34,045 bases of DNA from Roseburia sp. (GTDB lineage Bacteria; Bacillota; Clostridia; Lachnospirales; Lachnospiraceae). The stretch is taken from the NCBI GenBank assembly GCA_017549185.1, contig JAFYVJ010000055.1:1-34045 (forward strand). Reading direction: 5' to 3'. Of the stretch, positions 29,961 through 33,427 are shown piece after piece (position 1 is the first letter of the stretch; each line of letters begins with the position of its first letter). Under the pieces are notes generated by a model, which was given only the letters and a program-made list of their open reading frames with translations, was not told the origin of the DNA and ran no database searches. The position numbers and the translations under genes are program-made.

Positions 29961-30019
29961 ATAATACTGAACTCGTCTAGCTTGATAAATTCGTAATCAT
30001 CAGATTCGTAATGAAAGCA

Positions 30020-31162
30020 TTACTGCACCATGAGAACACCTTCACAATCGCAAAGAACATATTGCAGCATTTGGAATGCGGCAGATTTTTTGGCCTCTTT
30101 TTTCGAGGATAATTTTGCTGAAAAAGACTTATTTTTTTCGGCTATACTGCAAATACAGTTCCAAATCGGATTACCGTCTTTATCGTATGTTAGTTCAAAA
30201 TCGTAAATAGGAATAGAGAAGTATCCGCGCCGAGCTAAAGTTTCTAATTGATTAATAGCATTATCCTTATTAGGATTATCAATTTCATCCCGAATAGAAA
30301 ACCAATAACCTTCTTTACAAAGAAACTCATATGCAAGTTTGCAAACATTTTTTCTGGCCTCTGTTTGTGATTGTCCAAAAGCTCTGAAAATAGGTAAATC
30401 ATCTGCTATTTTCAAAAGGCAATGGTATTTTGTTTTATGGATAAGTTCATCTTGTAGTCCAAGAGGCTGAGAAATTCCGTCAAACGGAGAGTACTGAGTG
30501 ATTTGATATCCGCTTTCTTCGAAATGATAAAGGGGTATTCCGTTCGATTTTCTGTACGACCATTCTTGAATCAACAAAATATAATCTTCCGTATTGTCAT
30601 CATTAAGAATACTATCGGGAGATAGCATAATCTCAACTGCGTTTTGTAGCTTTTCCATATTCCAGTTGCAGTCAATTGCAATCGCACCGAGAATCGCTTC
30701 GAACAGATCTTCTTTTACAGAGTTTTCCGCACCTATATTTTGGATGATATCACCATGTCCCATCAGTAGATAATTCGATAGACCAAGATCGTCAATACGG
30801 CTTGCCAATGTTTTCTTTTGCACCAACAGTTTTTTGATTTCAGTTAGTTCAGATTCCGAATAGTTTGAAATCAGTACATTTTCCACGGGAAAAGTTTTGC
30901 TTTCCGTCTCATACAACCAACTGTTTTTGAGGTTGGGATCAAACTTTTTATACAGTCCTACCGAATTGCTGTTTTTGGTGATTAAAAATTTCACCGCAAA
31001 GAGGTCTAACACTTTATCACCGATAAATTCTAACACCTCGTTGTTCTCGCCGCCGTTTTCTACCGAGTATGAGCGTCTAGTGAATGCTTGCTGCAACAAG
31101 TTAAAATTGTTGAATGTGTAGCCGATTTGATTTTGGATAAAGATTAAATCATTTTGTTCCAT
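30020..31162 (-). CDS. Divergent RNase III with two dsRNA-binding domains
   Basis: A 380-aa endoribonuclease homologue. The RNase III domain (about 5-165) has NNEVLEFIGDKVLDLF (E42, E45, D49) and SVKEDLFEAILGAIAID (D152, E155), so all catalytic metal ligands are intact. About 40 extra residues (60-100) are inserted before SESELTEIKKLLVQKKTLA. Two dsRBD-like regions follow: about 193-282 (DYILLIQEWSYRK ... GQSQTEARKNVCKLAYEFL, degenerate with an insert) and about 301-371 (NAINQLETLARRG ... SSKKEAKKSAAFQMLQYVL, close to consensus). Housekeeping bacterial RNase III has one dsRBD and about 230 aa. ATG 31162 follows AAAGGA; an ATG 11 codons upstream lacks one. It stands alone, next to tRNA-Leu. 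The target is unknown; RNA processing or antiphage function is possible. Confidence 0.85.
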   Translation of the reverse strand: MEQNDLIFIQNQIGYTFNNFNLLQQAFTRRSYSVENGGENNEVLEFIGDKVLDLFAVKFLITKNSNSVGLYKKFDPNLKNSWLYETESKTFPVENVLISNYSESELTEIKKLLVQKKTLASRIDDLGLSNYLLMGHGDIIQNIGAENSVKEDLFEAILGAIAIDCNWNMEKLQNAVEIMLSPDSILNDDNTEDYILLIQEWSYRKSNGIPLYHFEESGYQITQYSPFDGISQPLGLQDELIHKTKYHCLLKIADDLPIFRAFGQSQTEARKNVCKLAYEFLCKEGYWFSIRDEIDNPNKDNAINQLETLARRGYFSIPIYDFELTYDKDGNPIWNCICSIAEKNKSFSAKLSSKKEAKKSAAFQMLQYVLCDCEGVLMVQ

Positions 31163-31660
31163 AATAAAAAATCCTTTCAGTAAATAATTTACCAAAAGGC
31201 ATAATTATATCCGACAAAAAATACTACCCCTGTGTACCGAGATAGCAATTGCCGGACAATGTAGATTAAATTCAATTCTTTGTTTTTGGGTGTTTACAGA
31301 TGTTCACTTGCATAAACAAAAATAAACACATAGAAACAATGTCTCAAATTTAAAATATTATGCCTAATGCAAATTTATTGTAGCAGAGGAAAACTGGAAT
31401 GGCAATAGTTATATAATAAAACTATTCTTCGGAACAATGGAATCGTTACTGTTAAGAGAGCAGCTAATCACTTGCTGATTTACTGCAAAATAAAATGATT
31501 CAAATTATTTTTTTGAGAAAAGTATCATTGTGATTTTGCAGGGGGAAAATAGGGGGAAGTCACTCAATTTTGACTTGTGTGAGGTCGATTTTGATATAAC
31601 GATATTGAGCTTATTTATAAAATGGGGAAAAGTTTTGTAGCATAAGGGGGTAAGGCATAG
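31163..31660. other. AT-rich spacer without genes
   Basis: About 500 nt with no convincing ORF on either strand. A TATAAT on the minus strand (near 31205-31210) may be the RNase III promoter -10, with a poor -35. GTGTTTA/TAAACAC (about 31289 and 31328) and AATAGTT/AACTATT (about 31402 and 31420) are inverted repeats. Two GGGGGAA repeats occur near 31541-31558. Confidence 0.5.
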
Positions 31661-31697: not shown

Positions 31698-31704
31698 GAT
31701 ATGA

Positions 31705-31788
31705 TGCAGAAGAAGGGACTTGAACCCTCACGGTATTGCTACCACTGGCACCTGAAGCCAGCGCGTCTGCCGATTCCACCACTTCTGC
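31705..31788 (-). tRNA. tRNA-Leu (anticodon CAG)
   Basis: The 84-nt cloverleaf has acceptor stem GCAGAAG/CTTCTGC, anticodon stem CTGGC/GCCAG with loop TTCAGGT (CAG), a long variable arm as in class II tRNAs, and the T arm GAGGGTTCAAGTCCCTT. The discriminator is A; CCA is not encoded. It reads CUG codons. Confidence 0.97.
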
Positions 31789-31799
31789 AAGTAAGATAT

Positions 31800-31920: not shown

Positions 31921-31950
31921 AATCAAGTCGTCACGAACGAGTGACAAAAT

Positions 31951-32034
31951 GCGGAAGTGTCGGAATTGGCAGACGAGCAAGACTAAGGATCTTGTGGCAG
32001 TTATGTCGTGTGGGTTCAAGTCCCATCTTCCGCA
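31951..32034 (+). tRNA. tRNA-Leu (anticodon AAG)
   Basis: The 84-nt class II tRNA has acceptor GCGGAAG/CTTCCGC, anticodon stem CAAGA/TCTTG with loop CTAAGGA (AAG), a variable arm, T arm with GGGTTCAAGTCCC and discriminator A. CCA is not encoded. An A at position 34 is probably modified to inosine or read with wobble. Its 3' end faces the integrase gene, so it is the probable attachment site of the element on the right. Confidence 0.96.
32012..32034 (+). other. Presumed attachment site (tRNA 3' half)
   Basis: The T arm and 3' acceptor strand of tRNA-Leu(AAG) are the usual target of tyrosine integrases, and an integrase gene starts 77 nt away. The matching direct repeat that would mark the other end of the element is not in the window, so the exact core is not defined. 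Confidence 0.45.
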
Positions 32035-32047
32035 TTAACCTTTTAAG

Positions 32048-32110: not shown

Positions 32111-33427
32111 TTACACCGCTTTTGGCTTGAAAACTTTGGCAAATACATCTGCTTTTTCTGTAAGTGGTGTAACAGAATGAATATAATATTTCTGTGTTGT
32201 AGAAATATCTTTGTGACCTGCAAAGTCAGAAATCATTCTGTCTGGTAAAAGTTGGCTATCATGTAATTCCGAGATACAAGTTTTTCTAATTGCATGGTTT
32301 CCGCTAGGCTTACCAGAAATAATAAAGCGGTCTTTTTCATTTCTTACGCCGTTACATCTACGAAGCACATTATTCACAGCATATTCATGCATTCGTTCGC
32401 CAGACTTACTAACAAAGATATAATCTTTATCACTTCGCCCATTGGCTTTGTTTTCATCAAGTGCCATTTTAATATACTTTTTGGCGTCTGGTGTTAAAAC
32501 CAAGGTTCTAATGCCTGCGTCTGTCTTTGGGTGTTGTGCAACTCTATATCCGTCTGCGTGTATATTACCATTTTTATCTTTGGTATAGTTTTTAACTTCC
32601 GCCTTTGTAATATGAATAACATTATCATCAATATCACTTTCACAAAGTGCCACAAGTTCGCCAATACGCAGACCAAGATTAAAGTTAAGACAAATGGCTA
32701 AATAAGCGGTGTTTTTAGTTTTATTAAATTGTGCAAGTGCTTCTTTAATAACTTCGCTTTTGGTATCACTAGAATAAATAATTTCTTCTTCTGGTTTTGC
32801 TTCTGGTTCAGCGAAAACATTTTTTGAAGGCATAGCAATTTGACGAGGCAAATTAACCTGCACAATATCATGTGTAATACAATAATTATAGAGTTGGTTC
32901 ATCAAGCCTTTGGCTTCTATATATTTCTTTCTGGTAAGTTTTCTTTCGGCAATCAGTTTGAGTAGCCAATCGGATAATTTACCAACTGTAATTTTTGTAA
33001 TATCTTCATTTACAATATTGCTATCTTTATAGTAGGTGTTCCAGACCCATTGCAATTTATTGGCTGTTCCTTTTTCCGAAGATAAATATTTATATTCAAG
33101 GAATTTAGGATAAATAGTTGCCATTGTTATCTTGTCTGTTTCTTCCTTTGCTTTGTAAAATTCAACTATGAAATTTTCAAGGTTCTCTAATGTGGCTTTT
33201 GCTACAAGTTTCCCGTACTTGCTTCCGTCTGGGAGTTTCGTTTTCCAGCGTCCGTCCTTAGCCTGCCACACTTTGTAATTTTCTTTATGCTGTTTTAAGA
33301 TTGTTTGGCGTTTCATTATTTCTTTCACTTCTTCCAGCACATCATCTGTATTAAGATTATCTCTCTCTGGTAAATTATTCAATATCTCAACTACATTTTC
33401 TACAGTATTCAATTCATTATGGTTCAT
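32111..33427 (-). CDS. int: Tyrosine recombinase (integrase) of an integrated element
   Basis: A 438-aa site-specific recombinase. N-terminal region: a Lys-rich helix, then an arm-binding domain (YKVWQAKDGRWKTKLPDGSKYGK, about 48-72) with a Tn916-like three-strand look. The core-binding SAM-like domain spans about 95-205. The catalytic domain has Arg in NFNLGLRIGELVAL, HAIRKTCISELH (His and Arg), GHKDISTTQKYY with the Tyr nucleophile in the final YYIHSV segment. ATG 33427 follows AAGGAGG closely. It sits next to tRNA-Leu(AAG), facing it, as in integrative conjugative or mobilisable elements and prophages. Confidence 0.95.
   Translation of the reverse strand: MNHNELNTVENVVEILNNLPERDNLNTDDVLEEVKEIMKRQTILKQHKENYKVWQAKDGRWKTKLPDGSKYGKLVAKATLENLENFIVEFYKAKEETDKITMATIYPKFLEYKYLSSEKGTANKLQWVWNTYYKDSNIVNEDITKITVGKLSDWLLKLIAERKLTRKKYIEAKGLMNQLYNYCITHDIVQVNLPRQIAMPSKNVFAEPEAKPEEEIIYSSDTKSEVIKEALAQFNKTKNTAYLAICLNFNLGLRIGELVALCESDIDDNVIHITKAEVKNYTKDKNGNIHADGYRVAQHPKTDAGIRTLVLTPDAKKYIKMALDENKANGRSDKDYIFVSKSGERMHEYAVNNVLRRCNGVRNEKDRFIISGKPSGNHAIRKTCISELHDSQLLPDRMISDFAGHKDISTTQKYYIHSVTPLTEKADVFAKVFKPKAV

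Follow-up and report, generated by a model that had tools for sequence, protein, structure and literature searches.

An accessory RNase III with two dsRNA-binding domains is linked to a conserved structured RNA in Clostridia and may regulate itself

Bacterial RNase III is usually viewed as a housekeeping enzyme with one dsRNA-binding domain (dsRBD), and a gene for an RNase III with two such domains raises the question of what this enzyme does in its host. The gene lies on a contig of 34,045 nucleotides from Roseburia sp. (GCA_017549185.1, JAFYVJ010000055.1), the whole of which is referred to as the window. A sequence-only reading had described the protein as an intact RNase III with tandem dsRBDs, accessory and possibly acquired. 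Its observations on the protein stand; the structured RNA, the promoter and the terminator-like hairpin in front of the gene had been missed.

The features of the region are listed in Table 1. In an alignment of relatives (68 rows), residues N41, E42, E45 and D49 of the first signature and D152 and E155 of the second motif are invariant, and the predicted model has an intact RNase III fold with all catalytic E/E/D and D/E residues present, in agreement with the active site proposed earlier. The tandem dsRBDs were also recovered: dsRBD2 by Pfam dsrm and the model, dsRBD1, which has no Pfam match, by the model, where residues 193-282, the stretch on which the tandem claim depended, show a dsRBD fold. 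With a catalytic domain carrying E/E/D and D/E and a C-terminal dsRBD, the protein is by sequence a class 1 RNase III, and enzymes of this class cut long helices as dimers. By analogy with the family, the window enzyme would cleave dsRNA as a homodimer. Its score against TIGR02191, the rnc equivalog model, is 121.9 bits and thus below the curated cut-off of 166.25; its closest matches, among the matches listed, are bacterial RNase III, and PADLOC gave no match for it. It shares fold, catalytic residues and the C-terminal dsRBD with canonical RNase III (TIGR02191, rnc), but differs in the second dsRBD, an insertion in the catalytic domain, its accessory status and an upstream RNA of its own. 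The enzyme represents a new lineage within a known kind. A literature search, mostly without subscription journals and preprints, showed no bacterial RNase III with two dsRBDs among the papers listed.

Table 1. Features of the RNase III locus and its surroundings (window coordinates).
Feature	Position	Strand	Basis
RNase III gene, 380 aa: catalytic domain, dsRBD1, dsRBD2	30020..31162	-	domain searches, predicted model
First RNase III signature, residues 41-53 (N41, E42, E45, D49)	31004..31042	-	
Second catalytic motif, residues 149-160 (D152, E155)	30683..30718	-	
dsRBD1, residues 190-283, internal insert at about 216-245	30314..30595	-	model
dsRBD2, residues 299-372	30047..30268	-	Pfam dsrm 9.3e-8 and model
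Terminator-like hairpin, 12 bp then ATTTTTTATT; overlaps ribosome-binding site	31173..31199	-	
Conserved structured RNA, 167 nt, closing stem P1 GGCAUAAU/AUUAUGCC, arm A, arm B	31198..31364	-	
Promoter-like TTGCCA-17-TACAAT directly before RNA	31377..31405	-	10 of 12 matches
Widest DNA homology common with relatives at other genomic places (RNA, gene, short flanks)	29963..31385	-	blastn ends
tRNA-Leu(cag), 3' end towards module	31703..31789	-	
tRNA-Leu(aag)	31950..32035	+	
Tyrosine recombinase, neighbouring element at other tRNA-Leu	32111..33427	-	

The tandem-dsRBD enzyme is not the housekeeping RNase III, because a canonical rnc is present on another contig of the same genome (168.3 bits to PF14622; genome 70% complete). 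A canonical rnc above the TIGR02191 cut-off was likewise found in 49 of the 50 other carriers tested, where the family gene itself also matches this model, but below the cut-off. The housekeeping reading, which had been kept in reserve for the case that no other rnc existed and all relatives had the gene at this site, is ruled out by these results. The 145-aa ORF at 1651-2088 is the one that had been named Mini-III; it matches the RNase III model weakly, with 19.6 bits, so that the name is based on length and gene order.

The gene is accessory. Only 2 of 35 same-genus relatives have a clear homologue, and a third same-genus genome (G351) came from the family sample. In that sample, 11 of 397 genomes match at E <= 1e-9: seven intact members of the lineage (including the window's own genome), two with an N-extended form (G122 and G405), one with a decayed copy (G165) and one, G321, whose protein looks like the canonical enzyme. 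The order sample, which overlaps with the family sample, has the gene in 12 of 392 genomes at E <= 1e-12. When 84,980 genomes were scanned in a seeded search for the tandem-dsRBD part, 109 relatives emerged, of which the best 80 form the set of 80 loci used below. Their labels are all Bacillota or unplaced bacteria, records labelled with several families of Clostridia are among the carriers of the module, and many titles mention gut or rumen. Metagenome-assembled genomes (MAGs) are numerous among the carriers. Two divergent copies per genome were seen in G488 (L084) and G480 (L074); those in G488 lie about 14 kb apart on one contig.

The suggestion that the gene had been acquired was strengthened by its phylogenetic placement and by its genomic site. 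In a tree of 85 rows, the window protein groups with five MAG rows labelled Clostridia or Oscillospiraceae (100/100), and the proteins of the same-genus genome G035 and of Agathobacter ruminis (L114) are found elsewhere in the tree, a placement that indicates horizontal transfer of the gene. Genome G028 (L138:6012-10867) has a matching gene order up to the tRNA-Leu pair, where a recombinase and unrelated genes replace the RNase III gene; from this comparison, the tRNA-Leu pair of the window and G028 is a predicted insertion hotspot. In the window, roughly 75 bases separate the end of the tyrosine recombinase gene from the 3' end of tRNA-Leu(aag), and a separate element seems to begin here and to run off the contig end.

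Nearness to tRNA genes was also seen in the larger set (best 80 of 109), with a modest excess over random placements drawn within the 80 loci themselves: a tRNA is found within 500 bp of the gene in 8/80 loci (random, 3.1%; two of the eight, L058 and L059, are near-copies) and within 3 kb in 13/80 (random, 9.4%). Nine of these 13 tRNAs have their 3' end towards the gene. Two loci, L054 and L117, repeat 45 nt of the tRNA 3' end, not a full tRNA, on the far side of the gene, as for attachment sites; at the window, no attachment-type repeat beyond 13 nt was found. A viral origin was rejected: seeded protein searches of viral contigs revealed no relative and one exact RNA pattern had no match there, the phage collection gave six records with 41-76% coverage at 23-31% identity, and the RNA model described below had no match in the phage or plasmid collections. 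Among plasmids there were seven records, one of which (R. albus) has >80% coverage at 25.9% identity.

In most relatives, conservation extends upstream of the start codon, into DNA that contains a 167-nt RNA with the fold of a three-way junction. The window leader folds at -59.5 kcal/mol (z -5.69), and none of 200 shuffles was as low. In the alignment A7 (46 rows), 20 of the 41 consensus pairs have at least one change on both sides and 96.3% of 1879 cells are paired; slid pairings reach only 37-49%. The covariation is strong: both sides have changed in 86 cells, where shuffles gave 18.7 +/- 6.6 and no slid control exceeded 23, and none of five measures was reached by any of 500 shuffles. The RNA is closed by nine pairs, AAGGCAUAA with UUAUGCCUU. 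Arm A carries a GNAA tetraloop in 46/46 rows (GCAA 33, GAAA 8, GUAA 4, GGAA 1), and arm B covaries at its base and is variable at its tip. On the gene strand there are 279 G-U cells versus 11 A-C cells, which points to an RNA read from this strand. The median pairwise identity is 0.672 for the RNA, 0.572 for the coding DNA (0.669 for codon positions 1 and 2) and 0.513 for the protein. Within the RNA, the conservation of arm A (0.750) exceeds that of the coding DNA in 1025 of 1035 pairs, whereas that of arm B (0.525) falls below it.

Neither the RNA nor its linkage to RNase III turned up in any library or literature searched: when the window stretch and six loci were scanned, the Rfam 15 gathering score was reached only by tRNAs, and the literature search, with the coverage given above, revealed no description of the RNA. 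A short leader peptide was considered, as an ORF of 13 or 15 codons is present in 57 of the 71 leaders with a conserved AUG. We set it aside as unlikely because the conserved RNA explains these ORF lengths; five leaders read AUG-stop, since the variable base of the tetraloop is the first base of codon 2.

To follow the RNA, a model of it (R1) was searched over 95 sources. It matches 73 of the 80 loci (best 80 of 109) before the gene at E <= 2e-7, with weaker matches on the opposite strand over the same places. R1 was built from 45 of the 80 loci; of the other 35, 28 matched, some of them near-copies of used loci. L073, L075 and L077 gave only weak matches (E 0.007-0.019), and L076, L088, L115 and L129 none. 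In L088, L115 and L129 the start of the gene is cut off or broken; L076 is the sole locus with uncut gene and upstream region yet without a match (fold of L076:9278-9460, z +0.68). In whole genomes, where the stricter filters may lose weak matches, R1 was found in 7/397 genomes of the family sample and 11/392 of the order sample, together 13 different genomes. Each of the 13 has it immediately in front of an intact gene, at a distance of about 20-60 bases from where the protein match starts. The R1-positive genomes of the family sample are exactly the seven with an intact gene; G165, whose copy is decayed, has no match. In G746, the one carrier of the order sample without the RNA, the matched part starts 81 bases from a contig end, with a stop inside. 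No RNA was found away from the gene in the 397- and 392-genome samples with these filters. R1 can also be used as a marker for finding the module of RNA and RNase III.

Promoter and terminator were called from sequence alone. The window promoter by itself is weak, since the scan gave nine sites where shuffles gave 6.9 +/- 2.8. Across relatives, 62/76 leaders have a site with at least 9 of 12 matches in the 50 nt before the RNA, compared with 2/75 control stretches further upstream. For terminator-like sites, the region contains three versus 0.9 +/- 0.9 in shuffles. The 5' strand of the hairpin between RNA and gene starts with the CC that ends P1, and its 3' strand enters the ribosome-binding site. 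By one fixed criterion, a terminator-like hairpin starting from inside the 3' end of the RNA is present in 48/76 leaders versus 37/1520 shuffles and missing by this criterion in 28/76; paired changes are visible between loci. In the window, the P1 state (-59.5 kcal/mol) and the terminator state (-58.8 kcal/mol) differ by 0.7 kcal/mol. Six P1 pairs remain in the modelled terminator state, so that the two would compete over two or three pairs, and the predicted switch between them may be weak.

We interpret the locus as a mobile module of RNA and RNase III, with the leader as a target of the enzyme, a self-regulated dsRNA nuclease; to this reading we give a probability of somewhat less than one half (about 0.45). 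The protein, the covarying RNA structure, its tight linkage to the gene, the promoter, the overlap of the hairpin and the horizontal spread are computed observations, and from them we infer cleavage of the RNA by the enzyme, feedback and a dsRNA-clearing role. A single promoter would yield a leader that folds into the three-way junction, separated from the RNase III gene by the terminator-like hairpin, which would also cover the ribosome-binding site. The RNase III dimer would bind and cut this leader, which offers it two helical arms; cuts in the arms would weaken P1 and free its GCC end for the terminator. As the end of the P1 3' strand is common with the terminator stem, loss of P1 would favour termination with a covered ribosome-binding site, resulting in negative feedback. 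Other dsRNA, from an invading element or an antisense toxin RNA, would draw the enzyme away; the leader would then stay closed, and more enzyme would be made and destroy that dsRNA. Feedback on the leader is likely, action against foreign dsRNA is plausible, and a toxin-antitoxin-like role is possible. The defence role is suggested by mobility, tRNA sites and defence genes among ordinary neighbours.

Autoregulation has precedents in S. aureus and, as cited there, in E. coli and Streptomyces (accessible text of PMC3386247). Here as there, a structured stretch lies in the own mRNA, in our case in the 5' part of the predicted transcript. According to the same text, the S. aureus mRNA is cut within the coding region, whereas the window has a closed 167-nt three-way junction next to a terminator-like hairpin, and the RNA of the module is far more conserved than the mRNAs treated there. 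The locus belongs to a second, transferable RNase III lineage with two dsRBDs, linked to an RNA absent from the libraries searched. It makes directly testable whether a nuclease co-evolves with a leader that is itself the kind of RNA it cuts, and it is a candidate for bacterial defence directed at dsRNA. Several observations speak against the proposed feedback module: the few pairs over which P1 and terminator would compete, the 28 leaders without the hairpin, the gene of L076 without RNA and the weak matches of L073, L075 and L077, the decayed copy of G165 without a match, the low conservation of arm B and the mixed neighbourhood. Since any long hairpin would do for feedback, the near-invariant arm A and its loop hint at more than a cut site. 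A more far-reaching reading, which we regard as doubtful, is a new mobile RNA-enzyme immune module of gut Clostridia in which the tandem-dsRBD RNase III would be held in check by its cognate three-way-junction RNA; the RNA would be sensor and switch (P1 against terminator), and the nuclease would be released or induced by foreign dsRNA or by phages that interfere with RNA metabolism.

Three other explanations start from the same RNA and gene. In a system akin to type III toxin-antitoxin systems, RNA made in excess by way of the terminator would bind RNase III and keep it inactive until phage-induced transcription shut-off or RNA decay freed the enzyme and stopped growth. The order of promoter, RNA, terminator and endoribonuclease gene is that of ToxIN, AbiQ, TenpIN and CptIN in the accessible text of PMC5086642, arm A is conserved above the gene, and the gene is stand-alone, mobile and sometimes at tRNA sites. 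Unlike the tandem-repeat RNAs described there, however, the RNA is one large junction without tandem repeats (one weak row of 2.8 copies of 10 nt was found), the enzyme has an RNase III fold and no PADLOC match, and the RNA would more probably be a substrate than an inhibitor; we consider this explanation unlikely. Less probable still is a plain autoregulated accessory RNase III, engaged in ordinary RNA processing or in silencing antisense-controlled toxins, and retained on account of the type I toxins of resident mobile elements. Here the autoregulation precedent applies, and B. subtilis RNase III is essential by silencing foreign toxin genes (accessible text of PMC3531473), but nearly all carriers tested have a canonical rnc above the cut-off, and a conserved leader and two dsRBDs seem needless for such a role. 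Lower again we place the RNA as product, with RNase III as the maturase or partner of small RNAs or a trans-acting RNP derived from its own RNA. The invariant GNAA pattern, the beginning of the closed fold near the inferred transcript start and the conservation of arm A beyond the coding DNA agree with it, whereas the RNA never occurred away from the gene within the filters of the whole-genome scans, and no Piwi match was obtained in 50/50 carriers tested.

The last point also bears on a bacterial Dicer in an RNAi-like pathway, which we regard as very improbable. Budding-yeast Dcr1 likewise has two dsRBDs behind a single RNase III domain (accessible parts of PMC4521922 and PMC10328071), and the catalytic part of the window enzyme weakly matches K. 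polysporus Dcr1 (3rv0, 8.3e-4). However, the enzyme is bacterial and of weak sequence kinship to Dcr1 only, its best matches among those listed are bacterial RNase III, and Piwi/Argonaute matches at E <= 0.001 were found in 0/50 carriers, incomplete MAGs among them, by which an RNAi partner was rejected. The absence of K. polysporus Dcr1 among the 50 matches listed for the window protein is uninformative either way.

A conserved partner gene was rejected as well, as no neighbour cluster among 1182 ORFs occurs in more than 10 loci (best 80 of 109). Two clusters, by eye an ABC-type ATPase and an integrase, occur in 10 loci each, and in 11/79 loci a same-strand ORF starts less than 60 bp downstream or overlaps. 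The neighbours are mixed, with defence and mobile genes and also ordinary metabolism. Among immediate neighbours, 116/125 matched 233 PADLOC families, versus 65 families matched by 115 control proteins; as these models are redundant, families rather than matching proteins were counted, and the control regions are contigs that turned up in the search for the carriers' rnc, the excess is only indicative as a hint of defence islands. Small proteins alike by eye are encoded near the RNase III gene in G035 (L004:928-1296, minus strand) and G108 (L031:605-1153, minus strand).

An N-extended sister lineage is represented by the loci L023:11578-13098, L034:531-1727 and L036:1060-2397 (minus strand). 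One N-extended relative is encoded on plasmid pRUMAL01 of Ruminococcus albus 7 and has N in place of D49. R1 does not match in the N-extended relatives. Two of the three have strongly structured DNA upstream (z -5.0 and -5.6; R. albus, -2.1), and this lineage may have a leader RNA of its own; by eye, a CCUCC/GGAGG-type hairpin was seen there. A further sub-group, L068, L073, L075 and L077, has a diverged leader with tRNA-Leu(caa) on its upstream side, and the gene is followed on the same strand by an ORF of 227-272 aa, similar in sequence by eye.
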